NCBI GenBank assembly: GCA_029254025.1
Contig: JAQWYK010000024.1
Coordinates: 62,001-126,000, forward strand
DNA length: 64,000 nucleotides
DNA from: Crocinitomicaceae bacterium
Lineage (GTDB): Bacteria > Bacteroidota > Bacteroidia > Flavobacteriales_D > Crocinitomicaceae
Direction: 5' to 3'
Below are positions 9,681 through 52,017 of this stretch, in pieces (the stretch's first letter is position 1; the number at the start of each line of letters is the position of its first letter). The position numbers and the translations under genes were made by a program. The notes beneath the pieces are model-generated. The model had not been told where the DNA came from and did not search any database. It saw only the letters and a program-made list of their open reading frames with translations.

Positions 9681-10940
9681 ATGAAAATATTACTCAAAAA
9701 CGCGCACGTTGTCGATTCAAGTTCTTCTTTTAACAGAAAACATGTTGACGTATTGATCAATGACGGCATCATCGAGAAAATTGGAACTAATTTATCGGAT
9801 GCGGATGCTAAAGAAGTTATACATCCGAATTTACATATATCTCAAGGGTGGGTAGACTTGAAGGCTAATTTTTGTGACCCTGGAGATGAGCACAAAGAAG
9901 ATATACAGACAGGGTTGGACGCAGCAGCGGCAGGAGGCTATACGCACGTTGCAGTTTTAGGATCTACTTCTCCAGTAGTAGACAGTAAAGGACAAATAAG
10001 TTATCTCATTAATGGCGCTTCGAATCACCCTGTCAAACTGCATGTAATTGGAGCTGTAACGAAAGGAATGAAAGGAGAAAGTCTCGCTGAATTATACGAT
10101 ATGTATCAAAGCGATGTTCGTTTATTTAGTGATGATGAACACTCCTTGAGCTCAGGCATTCTATATCGTGCATTGTTATATTTACAAAATTTTGGTGGAA
10201 GAATTATATCATTCCCACAAGACCCCGGAATTGCTGGGAAAGGTCTGGTAAATGAAGGGGAAGCATCTACGCAAACAGGATTAAAAGCGTCTCCTAGCGT
10301 CGCTGAAATCGTTCAACTTGAACGAGATATTCGTTTACTAGAATACACTAATGGGCAACTCCATATAACTGGAGTTTCTTGCGGAGAAAGTGTTACTCTG
10401 ATAAGAAATGCTAAGAAAAAAGGGCTTTCAATAACAGCAGATGTGCATAGCAACCAACTTATATTTACCGAACGAGATGTCATTGATTTTGATACGAATC
10501 ACAAAGTAAACCCTCCATACCGCAGAGAAACTGATCGGATTGCGCTATGGGAAGGGCTGAAGGATGGTACATTGGATGCTATTGTATCAAACCACCGTCC
10601 TCATGATAAGGAAGAGAAGGATGTCGAGTTTGACCATGCTTCATTTGGTAATATTGCTTTACAGACCGTATTTGCTTCCCTTGCCACTGTCCCTGAATTT
10701 GATTTGGAGCTTGTCATTGAAAAGCTCACCAATGCCGGCCGAGTATTATTAGGAATTGAAAGCGGAAAGATAGAAGAGCAACAACCAGCTGACATAACCC
10801 TATTTGCCCCAAACGAAACATTTACTTTTACAAAAGAGCAGATTCTCTCAAAAACAACAAACACGCCGCACATAGCTAGAGAATTGAAAGGAATCATCTT
10901 AGGAATTATTCGAAACGGGCATTTTGTAGAAATCAACTAA
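9681..10940 (+). CDS. Dihydroorotase-like amidohydrolase lacking metal ligands
   Basis: The 419-residue sequence aligns by eye with type I dihydroorotase/allantoinase over its whole length: GWVDLKANFCDPG at 56-68, the central TIM barrel, and a C-terminal beta-domain region (LGIESGKIEEQQPADITLF). The metal site is degraded: the H-x-H after strand 1 is K61-A-N63, the His-x-Glu region at about 178 reads F-P-Q, the P-H-H-L block reads H-S-N-Q, and the final T-D-H-A-P-H reads S-N-H-R-P-H (Asp to Asn304). A His at 228 is kept. Family members of this type are labelled PyrC in Bacteroidota, yet the sequence argues for a non-catalytic or altered role like the PyrC' pseudoenzyme. Confidence 0.85.
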   Translation: MKILLKNAHVVDSSSSFNRKHVDVLINDGIIEKIGTNLSDADAKEVIHPNLHISQGWVDLKANFCDPGDEHKEDIQTGLDAAAAGGYTHVAVLGSTSPVVDSKGQISYLINGASNHPVKLHVIGAVTKGMKGESLAELYDMYQSDVRLFSDDEHSLSSGILYRALLYLQNFGGRIISFPQDPGIAGKGLVNEGEASTQTGLKASPSVAEIVQLERDIRLLEYTNGQLHITGVSCGESVTLIRNAKKKGLSITADVHSNQLIFTERDVIDFDTNHKVNPPYRRETDRIALWEGLKDGTLDAIVSNHRPHDKEEKDVEFDHASFGNIALQTVFASLATVPEFDLELVIEKLTNAGRVLLGIESGKIEEQQPADITLFAPNETFTFTKEQILSKTTNTPHIARELKGIILGIIRNGHFVEIN

Positions 10941-14716: not shown

Positions 14717-17278
14717 TTATTCTCCTGTGTCATCATTAACCGTGCCATTGTCGAAGTTTTCCTGAGCATCTCCTCCTTCAATACCATCCTGTAATTCACC
14801 ATCTTCCTCCTCATCAGAACGCGGGACTTTTGCAACAGCGGCAATCTCACCGCCTTTCTTCAAGTTAATAATCTTAACTCCCTGCGCAGCGCGGCCCATA
14901 ATACGAACTTGGTCTAAATGAATACGAATTGTAATACCACTTTTTGTAATGACCATTAAATCGTCTTCATCCGTTACATTTTTGATGGAAATCAAACTAC
15001 CAGTTTTCTCAGTAACAGAGATGGTTTTCACACCTTTACCTCCTCTGTTCGTGATACGGTACACCGGATCTCCTGTTTCAGGATCATCTACAAATGAACG
15101 CTTACCATATCCGTTCTCAGAGACAACCATCACAGTTGAATCACTTCCGTGCTCTAGACAAATCATACCGATCACTTCATCCGATGGCGTGCTCATTGTA
15201 ACACCTTTTACCCCGATAGAATTACGTCCAACTGTTCTTACAGTAGACTCATTAAATCGGATAGCATACCCTGATTTCTTAGCCAGAATAATTTCATTTG
15301 AACCATTCGTTAATTTAGCTTCGATCAATTCATCACCTTCATTGATATTAATCGCATTAATACCATTAGTTCGTGGACGAGAATACGCCTCTAGAGAAGT
15401 TTTCTTAATCACCCCTTTCTTCGTACACATTACGATAAAGTTACTATTCACGTACTCCTCGTCTTTCAAGTCTTTAACATTAATGTAAGCCTTAATTTTG
15501 TCGTCTTGCTCGATATTCATCAAGTTTTGAATCGCACGCCCCTTGGATGTTTTAGAGCCTTCAGGCACCTCATAGACGCGCATCCAGAAACATTTACCTT
15601 TTTCTGTGAAGATTAGTAAATAATCATGATTCGTAGCCACAAATATGGACTCTAAGAAGTCTTTATCACGCGTAGTTGAGCCCTTCGAGCCCATTCCTCC
15701 TCTATTTTGTACCTTATACTCTGTCAGATTAGTACGCTTTATATATCCTGCATGCGAAATGGTTACTACCACTTCTTCATCAGGAATTAAATCTTCAATA
15801 CGCATTTCTGAAGCAGAATATTCAATAATAGAGCGGCGTTCATCACCATATTTTTCACGCACATAGTCCAATTCATCCTTAATGATTTGCATTCTGCGAT
15901 CTTCATTGGCAAGGATATCCTTCAAATCAGCAATTGTCTTCATTAATTCCTCGTACTCGCTTCGCAACTTATCCTGCTCTAGGCCTGTCAACTGGCGCAG
16001 TCTCATCTCCACAATTGCACGCGACTGAAGGTCTGAAAGTTCAAAACGAGCGATCAACTTCTCTCGCGCTTCATCCGGACTCTTCGACGCACGAATAATG
16101 GCGATTACTTCGTCTATGTTATCCGAAGCAATAATTAACCCTTCCAATAAATGAGCGCGTTCTTCAGCTTTTCTCAACTCGTATTTAGTTCTGCGTACAA
16201 CAACTTCGTGACGGAACTCAACGAACTTTTCAATCATTTGCTTTAAATTGAGCATTTGCGGACGTCCATCCACCAATGCAATATTATTTACAGAAAATGA
16301 TGTTTGTAAAGAAGTATACTTGAAGAGCTTATTCAAAACAACATTCGGAATTGCATCGCGTTTCAACTCATACACGATTCGCATTCCCGTTCTATCAGAC
16401 TCGTCTCGTATATCACTTATACCATCCAGCTTACCGTCATTCACTAAATCAGCAGTCTTTTTAATCATATCTGCCTTGTTCACTAAGTACGGAATCTCAG
16501 TAACGATGATTTGTTCTCTGCCCGTTTTCGACTCTTCAATTTCGGCTTTAGCGCGCATTACAACACGTCCCCTACCTGTTTCAAATGCTTGTCTTACTCC
16601 TTCATACCCATAAATAATTCCCCCAGTTGGGAAATCAGGGGCTTTAATATGCTGAATTAATTCTTCAACCTCAATGTCCCGATTGTCAATGTATGCATTG
16701 ATACCATTCACCACTTCCGTAAGGTTGTGTGGAGGCATATTTGTAGCCATACCAACAGCAATACCACTTGCACCGTTCACTAATAAGTTGGGGATCTTTG
16801 TTGGCATTACAGTAGGTTCCTGCAAACTATCGTCAAAGTTATTTGCGAAATCAACAGTTTCTTTATCCAAATCCCCCAGCATCTCCTCGGCAATCTTCTT
16901 CAAACGAGCCTCAGTATAACGCATCGCTGCAGGACTATCACCATCTACTGAACCAAAGTTACCTTGTCCATCCACTAGCGGATAACGCAAGGACCATTCT
17001 TGAGCCATTCGCACCATGGTGTCATACACGGAGCTATCTCCGTGCGGGTGATATTTACCCAATACTTCCCCTACAATTCTTGCAGATTTCTTGTGTGGCC
17101 TATTCGAAACGATTCCCAAATCCTGCATCCCATAAAGAACACGGCGGTGAACTGGCTTAAAACCATCACGCACATCTGGAAGTGCGCGGGAAACAATTAC
17201 CGACATTGAATAATCAATGTAAGCTGACTTCATTTCATCTTCGATGTTGATCTGTATTATTCTTTCTCCTTCTGCCAT
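14717..17278 (-). CDS. gyrA: DNA gyrase subunit A
   Basis: The 853-residue length is normal for GyrA. The N-terminal breakage-reunion domain holds the catalytic tyrosine Y121 in [10 protein letters not shown], and the quinolone-resistance region [11 protein letters not shown] carries S82 and D86, equal to E. coli S83 and D87, i.e. the susceptible form. The coiled-coil tower ([15 protein letters not shown] onwards) and a six-bladed C-terminal beta-pinwheel follow, with the GyrA box as [10 protein letters not shown] near residue 560 (usual form QRRGGKG). The tail is acidic. It forms the A2B2 gyrase that introduces negative supercoils; gyrB is not in the window. Divergent from clpC across a 227-bp gap. 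Confidence 0.98.
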
Positions 17279-32772: not shown

Positions 32773-33693
32773 TTATTTCCAAGGTAATAGTTCAATTTTC
32801 TCAGCGCTTCCGCGGATGCCCTTATTTGCCTGTTGAATATCTTGGATCAAAGTGTTTACAATTGGGATTTTCGAACTCTTCTTGTGGTGTAGCGCAATAA
32901 TCTGACGGGCTGCGGTATGCCCTGCAAATTTCTTTACGCTCTTGTCAGGTAAAGATAGAAAGCGCTGGTAACAACTTGGCAAAAGTGTATATCCGTCATG
33001 CTGGTCTACCATCCGTATTAGGAGACTGAGATTCCCTCCTTCATAACTCCAGTCTTTTTTTGCATCTTCTTTTAAGTTACAAAAATTCATCATCTGAGTC
33101 CTCAAGCAATTTCCCTCACTGAGCAACCATGGCTTTAGTTCCAATAACTGCGATAAGTTGACAGAATCACCTAACAAACTTGGAGCATAAACTAAAATCT
33201 CCTCATTGAACAATATTTTCTCAGCCAAGAAACTTTCTTTGTAAGGTCCTGCCATAATTCCAATATCGATCTTCCTGTTTTCCAAGTGTTCTATGATCTG
33301 CTCTGATTTAAGTTCAATAATTTCTAGTTGAACTTCTCCAAGTTCTTCTTGCCACTTTCCATAAAATTCGGGCACCAAATAATCCGCGATGGTGGGAATG
33401 ATTCCCATCTTCACCTCCGCTTTATATATTCCTTTACTCTTCTGAACAGCTACCTCAAGTTCTTTAAAGCTATCTTCAATGGTTCGGAAATGGGGTAACG
33501 CTTTTTCTCCGAAGGGTGTCAATTGAAGTGGAGAGTAGTCTCGATCAAACAATAGCGTCCCAATCTCGTCTTCCGCTTTTTTAATTTGCATAGAAAGGGT
33601 TGGTTGTGTTACAAAGCAAGCTGCAGCAGCTCGCTGAAAATTCTTATGTTCTACTAATGCGAGTATATATTGAATTTGAGTATAAGTAATCAT
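32773..33693 (-). CDS. oxyR: OxyR-type LysR regulator of peroxide stress
   Basis: 306 residues. N-terminal winged helix (YILALVEHKNFQRAAAACFVTQPTLSMQIKKAE, residues 9-41) and LysR effector domain. Redox cysteines C196 and C205 lie in NCLRTQMMNFC with the same 9-residue spacing as E. coli OxyR C199/C208, so H2O2 sensing by disulfide formation is expected. The GYTLLPS strand after it also matches OxyR. Divergent from the dps/peroxiredoxin locus; ATG 95 bp from the dps start, with an ATAG-N7-CTAT palindrome immediately upstream. Confidence 0.93.
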   Translation of the reverse strand: MITYTQIQYILALVEHKNFQRAAAACFVTQPTLSMQIKKAEDEIGTLLFDRDYSPLQLTPFGEKALPHFRTIEDSFKELEVAVQKSKGIYKAEVKMGIIPTIADYLVPEFYGKWQEELGEVQLEIIELKSEQIIEHLENRKIDIGIMAGPYKESFLAEKILFNEEILVYAPSLLGDSVNLSQLLELKPWLLSEGNCLRTQMMNFCNLKEDAKKDWSYEGGNLSLLIRMVDQHDGYTLLPSCYQRFLSLPDKSVKKFAGHTAARQIIALHHKKSSKIPIVNTLIQDIQQANKGIRGSAEKIELLPWK

Positions 33694-33708
33694 ATAGTTT
33701 TTTTCTAT
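33694..33708. promoter_or_regulatory. ATAG-N7-CTAT palindrome, candidate OxyR half-site
   Basis: One full OxyR dimer half (consensus four ATAG elements spaced ~10 bp) immediately upstream of the oxyR ATG. It could serve autoregulation. A second, imperfect palindrome centred on CTATAG lies at 33729-33746. Confidence 0.45.
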
Positions 33709-33728
33709 AAATGTATAAACAATATTGA

Positions 33729-33746
33729 TTATAACTATAGCTGTAA
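33729..33746. promoter_or_regulatory. Imperfect 18-bp palindrome upstream of dps -7 element
   Basis: TTATAACTATAGCTGTAA has a CTATAG centre and mismatches that are all transitions. It overlaps the -33 area of the dps promoter, the position expected for an activator such as OxyR. Confidence 0.4.
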
Positions 33747-33752
33747 CATCCG

Positions 33753-33760
33753 TATCTTTG
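33753..33760 (+). promoter_or_regulatory. -7 element upstream of the dps pseudogene / prx operon
   Basis: TATCTTTG fits TAnnTTTG, 28 bases before the dps ATG. No comparable element lies just before the peroxiredoxin gene, so it probably drives prx too. Confidence 0.6.
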
Positions 33761-33788: not shown

Positions 33789-34234
33789 ATGAAAACAACG
33801 AACGATTTAATTACAAAGTTAAACCACCTAATAGCCACGTATCAAATTCATTATCAAAACTTTCGAGGGGTACATTGGAACATAAAAGGAGAAAACTTCT
33901 TTGAACTGTACACGAAATATGAAGAATTATATATTCGAACACAAGCGTGATTGACTAAATTGCTGAACGATTTTTATCGCTTGAAGCACATCCATTACAT
34001 CGCTATGCTGATTATTTGGATGAATCAGCGGTCCAATAAAATGAAACAATATCTGATGGCAAAGGTGGTGTCGATTATTTAGTAAAATATCAAATAATTT
34101 TGATTCAATGAGAACGTGAATTACTAAATTTAGCGGATGAATTAAACGATGAAGGTACGAATGCACTAATGTCTGGCTTTATTCGTGAAAAAGAAAAAAT
34201 AACATGGATGTTTAACATATGGTTGAACAAATAG
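33789..34234 (+). pseudogene. dps: Dps ferritin-like protein, disrupted by a frameshift and three stops
   Basis: Translating in frame from the ATG gives a normal Dps N-terminus (LITKLNHLIATYQIHYQNFRGVHWNIKG, partly quoted; the first His of the ferroxidase site is H-W-N) up to a TGA at 33948-33950. Shifting to the next frame at about 33947 restores the family sequence: V-I-D-(stop)-I-A-E-R-F-L-S-L-E-A-H-P-L-H, and later DEGTNALMSGFIREKEKITWMFNIWLNK to the natural end. Three in-frame stops interrupt this part at 33956, 34037 and 34109. It is therefore a full-length dps broken by one indel (1-nt loss or 2-nt gain) and three nonsense changes. Dps normally stores iron and protects DNA; it lies between oxyR and peroxiredoxin, the usual peroxide locus. 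Confidence 0.9.
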
Positions 34235-34281: not shown

Positions 34282-34923
34282 ATGGCAGTATTTGTAGGGA
34301 AAAAATTTCCAAGCATCGATGTTGATGCAATGAATGAAATGGGTGATACATTCAAATTGAATGTAGTTGAAGAAGCAATTAAAAACAAAAAGAAAGTAGT
34401 GCTTTTCTGGTATCCAAAAGATTTCACTTTTGTATGTCCAACTGAGCTTCACGCGTTTCAGGCGGCCTTAGGTGAGTTCGAAAAAAGAAACACGTTGGTT
34501 GTTGGTGCATCATGTGATACGGCAGAGGTGCATTTCGCTTGGTTGAACACACCAAAAGACAATGGTGGTATTGAGGGAGTAACCTATCCTATCTTGGCGG
34601 ATACTAACCGTAACTTAGCGAACATGTTGCGTATCCTAGATATCAAAGGAGAATCATACAATGAAGATACGGATTCTTACATCTATGAGGGATCTAATGT
34701 AACCTTTCGCGCAACGTACCTTATCGATGAAGATGGTTTGGTATTTCATGAAAGTGTAAACCATATGCCAGTTGGAAGAAATGTAAATGAATACCTTCGA
34801 CTAATTGACGCATATACACATGTCCAAGAGAAAGGTGAAGTTTGTCCGGCGAACTGGGAAGAAGGCAAAGATGCAATGTCTGCTTCTAGAGACGGAGTTG
34901 CTGATTACTTAAAATCTCATTAA
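34282..34923 (+). CDS. Peroxiredoxin (2-Cys, AhpC/TSA family)
   Basis: 213 residues. The peroxidatic Cys52 lies in FTFVCPTEL and the resolving Cys188 in GEVCPANW, both family signatures, so the enzyme should reduce H2O2 and organic peroxides through an intersubunit disulfide. Downstream thioredoxin gene, 2 bp away, is the likely reductant. No promoter element of its own is visible, so expression probably comes from the dps promoter. Length typical for Bacteroidota AhpC-like peroxiredoxin. The extended C-terminus after C188 follows the standard helix. Confidence 0.96.
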   Translation: MAVFVGKKFPSIDVDAMNEMGDTFKLNVVEEAIKNKKKVVLFWYPKDFTFVCPTELHAFQAALGEFEKRNTLVVGASCDTAEVHFAWLNTPKDNGGIEGVTYPILADTNRNLANMLRILDIKGESYNEDTDSYIYEGSNVTFRATYLIDEDGLVFHESVNHMPVGRNVNEYLRLIDAYTHVQEKGEVCPANWEEGKDAMSASRDGVADYLKSH

Positions 34924-34925
34924 TC

Positions 34926-35240
34926 ATGACAGCAGAAGAACTCACTACAGATACACTTGGAGAAGTTATTCAGCAAAATGACTTAGTTTTCGTGCAGTAT
35001 TCAGCTGGATGGTGTGGCAATTGCCGCATTATGAAACCAAAGTTCAAGAAATTTTCTGAAGAATCTTCTGCAAAGTTCGTAATTATTGATGCAGAGAAAA
35101 ATCCAGAATCGAGAAAGTTAGCAAAAGTAGATAACCTTCCTACGTTTGCAGCCTTTAGAAATGGAACACTTGTTCAGCAAACACAAACAAATAAAATAGA
35201 CGTATTAAAAGTATTTATCGATGAAGTTACCAATCATTAG
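34926..35240 (+). CDS. Thioredoxin-family protein
   Basis: 104 residues, classic thioredoxin fold. The redox motif is WCGNC (W-C-G-N-C-R-I-M-K-P), where the canonical form is WCGPC; Pro to Asn is known in several Bacteroidota thioredoxins paired with peroxiredoxin. The cis-Pro is in DNLPTFAAF. It overlaps the next gene by 20 bp and follows the peroxiredoxin by 2 bp, supporting a role as its electron donor. Confidence 0.93.
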   Translation: MTAEELTTDTLGEVIQQNDLVFVQYSAGWCGNCRIMKPKFKKFSEESSAKFVIIDAEKNPESRKLAKVDNLPTFAAFRNGTLVQQTQTNKIDVLKVFIDEVTNH

Positions 35241-35481
35241 ACACCTATCGAACTTTATTGAAGAACGAGACGAAGATTTTGTAGTAGAAACAATTGAAAC
35301 CCTCGAACACCTTACTGAGTTAGAATCGCTCAAAGATGAAGAACTCGATGTGATTGGAGAACTTATCTCCAATATGTACGGATCTATTGAAGTACACAAA
35401 CTGATGAAGAACGAAGGACTGAGTCAAAAAGATGCCTTGAAAAAATTCATGGATCGTGTACTCGGATCTATTGATAAATAG
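35221..35481 (+). CDS. DUF6952-like small protein
   Basis: 86 residues, acidic and helical (LSNFIEERDEDFVVETIETLEHLTELESLKDEELDVIGELISN, quoted in part; positions 9-52), with no Cys. This short family co-occurs with the peroxiredoxin-thioredoxin pair in Flavobacteria in my recollection (DUF6952). The start overlaps the end of the thioredoxin gene. A role as a partner or chaperone of the peroxidase is an inference from context. Followed by a terminator. Confidence 0.78.
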   Translation: MKLPIIRHLSNFIEERDEDFVVETIETLEHLTELESLKDEELDVIGELISNMYGSIEVHKLMKNEGLSQKDALKKFMDRVLGSIDK

Positions 35482-46622: not shown

Positions 46623-47240
46623 ATGGACTTGCCCTCAAAACACTTAGCCGAAGCGGTAGAACAATTGGCCTCTCTCCCCAGTGTGGGAAAACGAAGTGCT
46701 TTGCGTTTAGCATTAGAATTACTTAAGCGAAGTCCCGAAGAAATTGCACGATTTGCCCAGGCATTCGTTGCTATGAAAGAAAAAGTGAAACTCTGCAATT
46801 CCTGTGGAAACATTTCCGATCTCGATATTTGCAACATATGCAGTAACCCTGGACGCGATCACTCCATCATTTGTGTGGTGGAAGACGCACGTGACGTAAT
46901 GGCTATAGAGTCTACCCGTTCATACAAAGGAATTTATCATGTCTTGGGAGGTGTTATTTCTCCAATGGATGGCTTGGGACCAGAAGACTTGAATATACTT
47001 TCACTGATCAACAAAGTAGAAAAGACCCCTCCCTCAGAAATTATATTTGCGCTTGGAGCCACTATGGAAGGAGATACGACCAATTTTTACTTGTATAAAA
47101 AATTACAACACTTAGGACCTTCCATTACCACTTTGTCTCGCGGCGTTGCGGTTGGAACAGAATTACATTATGCCGACGAATTAACGCTTGGCAGATCGAT
47201 ACAGCAACGACTTCCATTTGAAACGACATTTAATAGATAG
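46623..47240 (+). CDS. recR: Recombination protein RecR
   Basis: 205 residues, normal size. N-terminal HhH (ASLPSVGKRSALRLALELL), C4 zinc finger LCNSCGNISDLDICNICSN with four Cys, and the Toprim domain (IICVVEDARDVMAIEST, GGVISPMDGLGPEDLNI). Forms the RecFOR loading complex for RecA at gaps. recO and recF are not nearby. maf follows 1 bp after the stop, so the two genes form a small operon. Confidence 0.97.
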   Translation: MDLPSKHLAEAVEQLASLPSVGKRSALRLALELLKRSPEEIARFAQAFVAMKEKVKLCNSCGNISDLDICNICSNPGRDHSIICVVEDARDVMAIESTRSYKGIYHVLGGVISPMDGLGPEDLNILSLINKVEKTPPSEIIFALGATMEGDTTNFYLYKKLQHLGPSITTLSRGVAVGTELHYADELTLGRSIQQRLPFETTFNR

Positions 47241-47241
47241 C

Positions 47242-47811
47242 ATGTTTCAACAAAACATTATACTTGGTTCAGGTTCTCCACGAAGAAAAGAGCTGCTTTC
47301 TTCATTAGGTTTTTCATTTACTGTAAAAACCAAACCAACGGACGAGTCGTTTCCTTCGAGCCTACCACCGAGCGAAGTTCCTGTTTTTCTTGCTAGGAAA
47401 AAAGCTGCTGCGCTCTTACCCGATTTAGCCACAAACGAAATGCTCTTAACAGCAGATACAATTGTGGTATTAAAAGGAGAGATTCTCGGTAAACCGTCTT
47501 CACTTGAAGAAGCAAAGAATATGTTGCAGGAGCTTTCTGGAAAAAAACACGAAGTAATCAGCGGAGTGTTTATAACATCTGCGAACAACGAACAAGAAAT
47601 TACCGTATCTACTGACGTGTATTTCAAAAAACTGTCTCTAGAAGAAATCGAATACTATGTCAATACCTATTCCCCCCTCGATAAAGCTGGAGCCTACGGT
47701 ATTCAAGAATGGATAGGTCAAATCGGGGTTGAAAAAATCCATGGTTCCTATTACAATGTAGTGGGACTTCCTACAGAAGCGGTGTGGGAAGTGTTGAAGA
47801 ATTGGAAGTGA
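47242..47811 (+). CDS. maf: Maf-like nucleotide pyrophosphatase
   Basis: 189 residues from the ATG one base after recR; an in-frame upstream extension inside recR is rejected. Family motifs: LGSGSPRRKELL (substrate loop), TADTIVVLKGEILGKP with the catalytic Asp and Lys, and DKAGAYGIQEWIG. Maf/YhdE-type enzymes hydrolyse modified or canonical NTPs such as dTTP/UTP; specificity is not decidable here. Confidence 0.95.
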   Translation: MFQQNIILGSGSPRRKELLSSLGFSFTVKTKPTDESFPSSLPPSEVPVFLARKKAAALLPDLATNEMLLTADTIVVLKGEILGKPSSLEEAKNMLQELSGKKHEVISGVFITSANNEQEITVSTDVYFKKLSLEEIEYYVNTYSPLDKAGAYGIQEWIGQIGVEKIHGSYYNVVGLPTEAVWEVLKNWK

Positions 47812-51114: not shown

Positions 51115-52017
51115 ATGCAAAATCCAAACTCTATTTACATTCTTTCTCCCCTTCATTTTGGTTGCAATACAGAGACGGCGAAAAACAACCATTTTCAACA
51201 CACGCTTCCTAATAGCAAGCACCTTGAACAGATGGGTGCAAAAGAACACTACCTTTTCAGAGAACTGCTTCAAGCCTTCGATATACACACTTTTACGTTG
51301 CAAGACGACGAGGAAATTGTCAACTCCGACGCCGTTTTTCTCAATAATTGGTTCAGTGTAATGCCGGATAAAACACTCGTTATTTATCCCATGTGGGCTA
51401 GGAATAGACGAACTGAAGTTCGAGAAGAGACCATCAACTTCATTAAAGACCGCTCAGACATTCAAAAGGTGCGCGACTATCGCTCATTTTTGGACGCCAA
51501 CCAATTCGTAGAAGGGACTGGCTCTATTATCTTCGATTTCGAGCACAAAAAAGCCTATGCGTGTATTTCGGAACGTACCGATGTGCGATTGTTTGAAAAG
51601 ATTTGTACGGACCTCGGTTATACGCCGATTTCATTTATCGCAGAAGATGTGCGCGGCAATTCCATTTATCACACCAACGTAATGTTGTCAATTGGAGAAA
51701 ATATAATCGTCATCTGCTCGGAAGCTATTAGTGACACCATCGAACGACAAATTGCACTTAAAAACCTGACGCAAACCAATCGATGCTTAATGGATATCAG
51801 TTTTGAACAGATGAATCAATTTGCAGGTAACGTTTTTGAAGTCACCAATTCTAAAAATGAAGCGATTCTCTGCATGAGCTCAACTGCAAAAAAAGCATTT
51901 ACTGAGGCTCAACTTGAAACACTTCAACAACACTGCAGAATTATGGCCGCTCCCATTCCAACCATCGAGAAAGCAGGTGGTGGTAGCGTTCGCTGTATGA
52001 TTGCAGCCAATTATTAA
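51115..52017 (+). CDS. ctlX: CtlX-type arginine-deiminase-fold hydrolase (citrulline utilisation)
   Basis: 300 residues of the guanidino-group-modifying (amidinotransferase/ADI) fold. FLNNWF supplies the early Asp/Asn region, VEGTGSIIFD the E-G-T-G-S motif with Glu133, YHTNVML the His186, and GGGSVRCMIAANY the catalytic Cys294. CtlX, linked to citrulline use in Francisella, is one named member. The substrate here is not proven. The 51-bp gap to the GNAT-nitrilase gene and the pair's recurrence in Bacteroidota suggest a joint pathway. Confidence 0.88.
   Translation: MQNPNSIYILSPLHFGCNTETAKNNHFQHTLPNSKHLEQMGAKEHYLFRELLQAFDIHTFTLQDDEEIVNSDAVFLNNWFSVMPDKTLVIYPMWARNRRTEVREETINFIKDRSDIQKVRDYRSFLDANQFVEGTGSIIFDFEHKKAYACISERTDVRLFEKICTDLGYTPISFIAEDVRGNSIYHTNVMLSIGENIIVICSEAISDTIERQIALKNLTQTNRCLMDISFEQMNQFAGNVFEVTNSKNEAILCMSSTAKKAFTEAQLETLQQHCRIMAAPIPTIEKAGGGSVRCMIAANY

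Follow-up and report, generated by a model that had tools for sequence, protein, structure and literature searches.

Probable recent loss of dps within an otherwise open oxyR–peroxiredoxin locus of a Crocinitomicaceae bacterium

Introduction

In Escherichia coli, OxyR induces dps, and under peroxide stress the Dps protein reduces the pool of loose iron (available part of PMC8115020). A corresponding response has been described in Prevotella intermedia, where, according to the accessible portion of the report, the induction of dps, ahpC, and ahpF requires OxyR (PMC7999485). The locus analysed here lies in a stretch of 64,000 nucleotides from a Crocinitomicaceae bacterium, referred to as the window. 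It resembles that of P. intermedia, as far as that account extends, in placing OxyR and Dps within one peroxide response. It differs in that its dps is dead and in that the accompanying row encodes a Prx/AhpC-type protein together with a thioredoxin and a DUF6952 protein. The locus raises the question of whether dps has truly been lost beside intact partners, and what becomes of the promoter that it leaves behind. The features discussed are as follows.

32773–33693, minus strand: oxyR, LysR-type peroxide sensor; open, 306 aa; Pfam HTH_1 and LysR_substrate, OxyR matches in the PDB
33694–33752, no strand: spacer from the oxyR start to the promoter motif, 59 bp, probable OxyR operator region (role predicted)
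33753–33760, plus strand: TATCTTTG, Bacteroidetes -7 promoter-like element directed toward dps–prx, fitting TANNTTTG
33789–34234, plus strand: dps pseudogene; phase change near 33946 followed by a stop at 33948, further nonsense codons in the original phase at 33956, 34037, and 34109, natural end at 34232–34234
34095–34102, plus strand: TAATTTTG, promoter-like motif within the dps remnant, missing at the same place in the congener
34282–34923, plus strand: prx, AhpC/TSA peroxiredoxin; open, 213 aa; assigned by ORF, Pfam, and NCBIfam
34926–35240, plus strand: trx, thioredoxin-like; open, 104 aa; assigned by ORF and Pfam
35221–35481, plus strand: DUF6952 protein; open, 86 aa; PF22264, E 1e-22

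A disabled dps among open neighbours

The dps frame starts with the ATG at 33789 and changes phase at about 33946, where the window is one base shorter than the congener, so that translation from this ATG would stop at the TGA in 33948–33950, after 53 residues. The original phase is interrupted by TAA at 33956, TAA at 34037, and TGA at 34109 before the natural stop, TAG at 34232–34234, is reached. An earlier note on this DNA had described a Dps frame with one frameshift and three extra stops at these positions, and both translation and the comparison with the congener confirm it. There are no Ns in the window. Its copy lacks the open reading frame that a functional Dps needs. An alternative genetic code was ruled out, because one of the lesions is a frameshift, the stops are of two kinds, and translation of the other genes is normal.

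The ancestry of the remnant is that of a Dps rather than of a ferritin proper. With X substituted at each lesion, its read-through translation matches Pfam Ferritin PF00210 over residues 9–149 (E 3.1e-16, 60 bits, cut-off 24.5); the Dps of the congener matches the same profile with E 3e-20, and Dps proteins of the family also match the read-through product. Three NCBIfam models match this product, all of them Dps/DpsA models and each below its own cut-off. The congener Dps finds its best PDB match in the DPS family protein 3iq1 (residues 5–146, E 7.7e-44), whereas the window copy cannot be translated past residue 53.

The earlier note had also listed oxyR, prx, trx, and the DUF6952 gene as intact, and all four frames are indeed open and encode the expected Pfam families. 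The oxyR product carries PF00126 and PF03466, both above cut-off; its best NCBIfam model is OxyR PRK11151 (135.7 bits, below the cut-off of 329), and its best PDB matches are the OxyR structures 4x6g and 3ho7. The two redox cysteines claimed for it are present as a candidate pair, Cys196 and Cys205, both opposite Cys in 3ho7; against 4x6g, Cys205 is opposite Cys and Cys196 opposite Asp. As is known for the family, they would correspond to C199/C208, the OxyR redox pair (PMC2225504, beginning of the abstract). The prx product differs from that of the congener at 2 amino acids, and the nearest named prx comes from a Crocinitomicaceae bin (L038, 92%).

Comparison with the congener

Two genomes of the genus were found, the bacterium's own and G001. 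An entire 10.6-kb contig of G001 is collinear with the window locus at 93.7% identity. The two loci share gene order, strands, and promoter motif (congener locus L007); the difference lies in dps, which in the congener occupies the same place as an open frame of 148 codons and in the window carries the frameshift and three nonsense codons. The open congener gene supports the proposal of the earlier note that dps was recently lost within an otherwise open oxyR/prx–trx–DUF6952 locus.

Nucleotide differences between the two genomes amount to 50/441 in dps (11.3%) and 444/8124 in nine neighbours (3.1–7.2% each; p 4e-6), a twofold excess for dps. Codons with amino-acid changes are similarly enriched, with 20 of the 144 non-stop codons of dps against 106 of 2708 in the neighbours (p 3e-6), and the dN of dps without stops is 0.064 as compared with 0.004–0.0275. 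Its dS of 0.38 and its nucleotide divergence are each the highest of the ten genes compared. The dN/dS ratio of dps, summed over both lineages, is 0.17, which indicates that the gene was under constraint during much of the time compared.

A wider sample comprised 31 ORF rows from five congener pieces, covering part of the window; the fifth piece, L161, contributed none. The dN of dps is high in this sample without being unique, as 2 of the 27 other measurable gene pairs exceed it (0.088 and 0.151). Over roughly 36 kb of congener contigs, all 28 real gene pairs other than dps are unbroken. Stops were seen in three of the 31 rows in addition to dps. One is a gene at 9681–10940 (419 codons), presumably dihydroorotase-like by our own assignment, which is two codons shorter at its 3' end than its counterpart in the congener. 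The other two were rejected as genes: relative to a 300-codon ORF at 51115–52017, one is out of frame and the other antisense. Separately, two adjacent genes at 46623–47805 show a dS to the congener of 1.17 and 1.61, far above most others, and the dS of a gene at 14729–16924 is also high (0.88). Recombination is one possible cause of such values.

The direction of the changes in dps was assigned with 32 aligned Dps rows, of which 31 are distinct (L014 and L038 have the same sequence) and 3 are the damaged copies from other genera described below. Among the 24 sites that differ between window and congener, 12 are derived in the window, 2 in the congener, and 10 are unclear. The 12 window-derived changes consist of the 3 stops and 9 missense changes, and three of the latter fall at sites that are otherwise constant in the aligned rows (15, 41, and 130; 32/32, 32/32, and 31/31, respectively). 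The asymmetry of 12 to 2 has a binomial p of 0.013; with the stops excluded, 9 to 2 is marginal (p 0.065). For oxyR, which served as a control with 55 rows, 4 changes were derived in the window, 4 in the congener, and 10 were unclear; the contrast with dps (12:2 against 4:4) falls short of significance (Fisher p 0.14). The case for a pseudogene under relaxed selection is made by lesions that the close relative lacks together with the excess of amino-acid change. When random substitutions were simulated on the congener dps, the probability of at least three stops was 0.02 with 10 substitutions, 0.21 with 30, and 0.45 with 50, which suits lesions accumulated across a fair part of the branch.

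The promoter at the locus

The element TATCTTTG agrees with the Bacteroidetes -7 consensus, given as TANNTTTG in the part of PMC6847099 that was available. It begins 59 bp from the oxyR start and has the same letters in the congener, as expected from the earlier statement that the promoter is kept; around it, 7 of 59 bases before the motif and 7 of 28 after it differ between the two genomes. The further suggestion, that prx depends on this promoter for want of another and thereby preserves it, has evidence on both sides. The 47-bp gap between dps and prx in the window contains no TAnnTTTG, which agrees with it; the motif TAATTTTG at 34095, inside the remnant, speaks against it or is neutral. 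The latter may be a chance occurrence or a new start for prx. The window has 80 occurrences of TAnnTTTG where shuffling predicts 72, and the motif count alone is therefore uninformative.

Relatives offer a broader view of such motifs. Thirty-two dps-bearing loci were considered for the scan and one was skipped for lack of prx, leaving 31, of which 30 are distinct. A motif lies within 150 bp before dps in 24 of these 31 (in four of them more than 110 bp away) and between dps and prx in 13; the nearest relatives (L008, L011, and L014 = L038) have no second motif between dps and prx. From the 109 dps-less genomes 37 loci were fetched. In 24 of them oxyR is divergent beside prx, and every one of the 24 has TAnnTTTG within 150 bp before prx. 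Half of these (12/24) have two or more motifs, one of them nearer prx; the 12 with a single motif have it at about 58–60 bp from oxyR (6 loci), at 69 bp (3 loci), or only near prx (3 loci). Since 12 of the 13 dps-less loci that lack oxyR have the motif as well, finding it at a locus carries little information. Among loci with a clean oxyR start (eight unclean loci excluded), the motif starts 54–62 bp from oxyR in 14 of the 25 that carry dps (13 of 24 when distinct ones are counted) and in 16 of the 22 with no dps in the stretch, including the named L117; the corresponding distance in the window is 59 bp. These counts are not independent, because the loci are related.

Two side observations concern this spacing. 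In three dps-less loci of one genus (L123, L152, and L153) the motif stands 69 bp from oxyR, ten above the usual 59, or about one helix turn. The stretch before prx in L131 resembles these three by eye and has no oxyR within 1.8 kb upstream; oxyR may have been lost there and the promoter kept.

These data bear on a reading that concerns the promoter only, namely that TATCTTTG and the 59 bp upstream of it persist through oxyR autoregulation or for want of time, and that prx has or gains a start of its own, for example TAATTTTG at 34095. We regard it as a serious possibility, somewhat short of an even chance. The 59 bp beside oxyR sit between divergent genes and could be kept by oxyR autoregulation; the motif at 34095 is not shared by the congener, and both the dps–prx motifs of the 13 dps-bearing loci and the multiple motifs in half of the dps-less loci with oxyR are compatible with an own start for prx. 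However, some 180 bp separate the motif at 34095 from prx, and the motif belongs to a class that is common by chance. Moreover, 6 of the 24 loci that have oxyR and lack dps possess a sole motif within 150 bp, at about 58–60 bp from oxyR, which indicates that such a promoter can serve prx.

Artefact or residual use

Could dps be open in the cell, with lesions produced by poor base calls or a chimeric contig? Four disabling changes fall within about 165 bp of a single draft genome of 50 contigs, and the earlier note was concerned about error-prone sequence or assembly on such grounds. However, three of the lesions are substitutions, none is located at a long homopolymer, and the genome is 99.91% complete and 0.24% contaminated, with the locus on a contig of 179,845 bp. 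An assembly fault is unlikely because missense changes at family-constant sites accompany the lesions, because the divergence of dps is twice that of its neighbours, and because the other 28 gene pairs are unbroken. The concern is thereby largely answered; we give an artefact only a slim chance and take the pseudogene as real.

Still less credible is a locus that retains a use, whether by encoding a 53-residue peptide, by yielding full-length Dps through recoding, or by acting as an RNA leader for prx. In its favour, the frame has kept its 5' end, the promoter motif persists, and the remnant is close to full length. Against it, 53 of 148 residues do not make up the whole ferritin-like domain, any recoding must cross the frameshift and three stops of two kinds, and the divergence and dS of dps, the highest among the ten genes, show no sign of constraint on its DNA.

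What remains in the genome

A second dps had been named as a point to check, and neither the PF00210 profile nor a search with family Dps proteins found one in the bacterium's own genome. The PF00210 matches in this genome are a ferritin on contig C22, both halves of the pseudogene, and a weak match on C6; the C6 protein was ruled out as a second Dps, being MiaE-like (below the cut-off of that model). The ferritin is unbroken (PF00210 E 2.5e-39; its best model is a non-heme ferritin, below its cut-off), and C6 encodes a KatG-type peroxidase with two peroxidase domains in one open frame. No match to a KatE-type catalase was obtained in the genome. The loss of an iron-storage arm proposed in the earlier note was thus overstated, given the ferritin and the KatG-type peroxidase: the cell has lost the oxyR-linked mini-ferritin and not iron storage as a whole.

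dps across the family

Many members of the family lack dps, and those with small genomes lack it more often. Of 200 family genomes, 91 gave a Dps match (E up to 1e-5), which in 14 of them was a remote match only, and the other 109 gave none. By comparison, prx (E up to 1e-60) is present in 177 of the 200 and ferritin (E up to 1e-15) in 163, and 78 of the 109 dps-less genomes keep a ferritin. Damaged dps copies occur in three other genera: a frameshift in G004, a TAA opposite codon 78 in G147, and a TAG opposite Trp30 in G023 (loci L155, L156, and L157); these could be errors.

The comparison of genome sizes took in genomes with a completeness of 90% or more. Each size was rounded to 0.1 Mb and then divided by completeness; genomes with only remote Dps matches were set apart, and three genomes were not listed. 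The median is 3.71 Mb with a close Dps (n=63) and 2.67 Mb without (n=73), and genomes below 3 Mb make up 6 of the former and 53 of the latter. In each of the eight genera in which both states occur, the difference between the medians has the same sign; four of these genera are represented by just one dps-less genome, and one by just one dps-bearing genome. None of 10000 permutations made within genera, without a tree, reached the observed size difference. The bacterium's own genome measures 2.70 Mb.

Discussion

We conclude, with a probability of roughly 90%, that the window holds a real and fairly recent dps pseudogene, lost after the split from the congener, with transcription from TATCTTTG probably reading through to prx, ferritin and KatG presumably covering part of the role of Dps, and deletion as the likely eventual outcome. 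By comparison with the congener, which retains this order, the ancestor had oxyR divergent from a dps–prx–trx–DUF6952 row. After the split, the lineage of the window lost dps through a frameshift and nonsense changes, in one order or another, followed by drift. Transcription from TATCTTTG probably continues over the dead gene into prx–trx–DUF6952, and the second promoter-like motif within the remnant may assist that of prx. Peroxide scavenging by Prx would stay, and the ferritin and the KatG-type peroxidase, to judge from their assigned families, may cover part of the function of Dps. The likely end state is a locus from which the remnant has been deleted and in which prx adjoins oxyR, the arrangement seen at 24 of the 37 dps-less loci that were retrieved.

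A more far-reaching and rather doubtful extension would give this family a permanent promoter hub on the oxyR side, with dps as a dispensable first gene of the row, lost repeatedly as genomes shrink, and with prx taking over the peroxide-controlled start. The window would then be an intermediate, in which the untranslated remnant may damp prx by polarity and the new promoter TAATTTTG at 34095 may be arising to relieve it.

In the literature searched, the phrase 'dps pseudogene' did not occur, and none of the papers listed dealt with this locus, to judge by titles and the beginnings of abstracts. The loss of dps belongs to a familiar class of events and the locus to a familiar type; such losses are ordinary, well documented, and common in the family. 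The two genomes form a natural pair, one with an open and one with a dead dps in loci that are 93.7% alike, and such a pair asks what Dps adds to an OxyR/peroxiredoxin defence. That many of the smaller genomes in the family have no dps points to Dps as one of the stress proteins dropped during streamlining.
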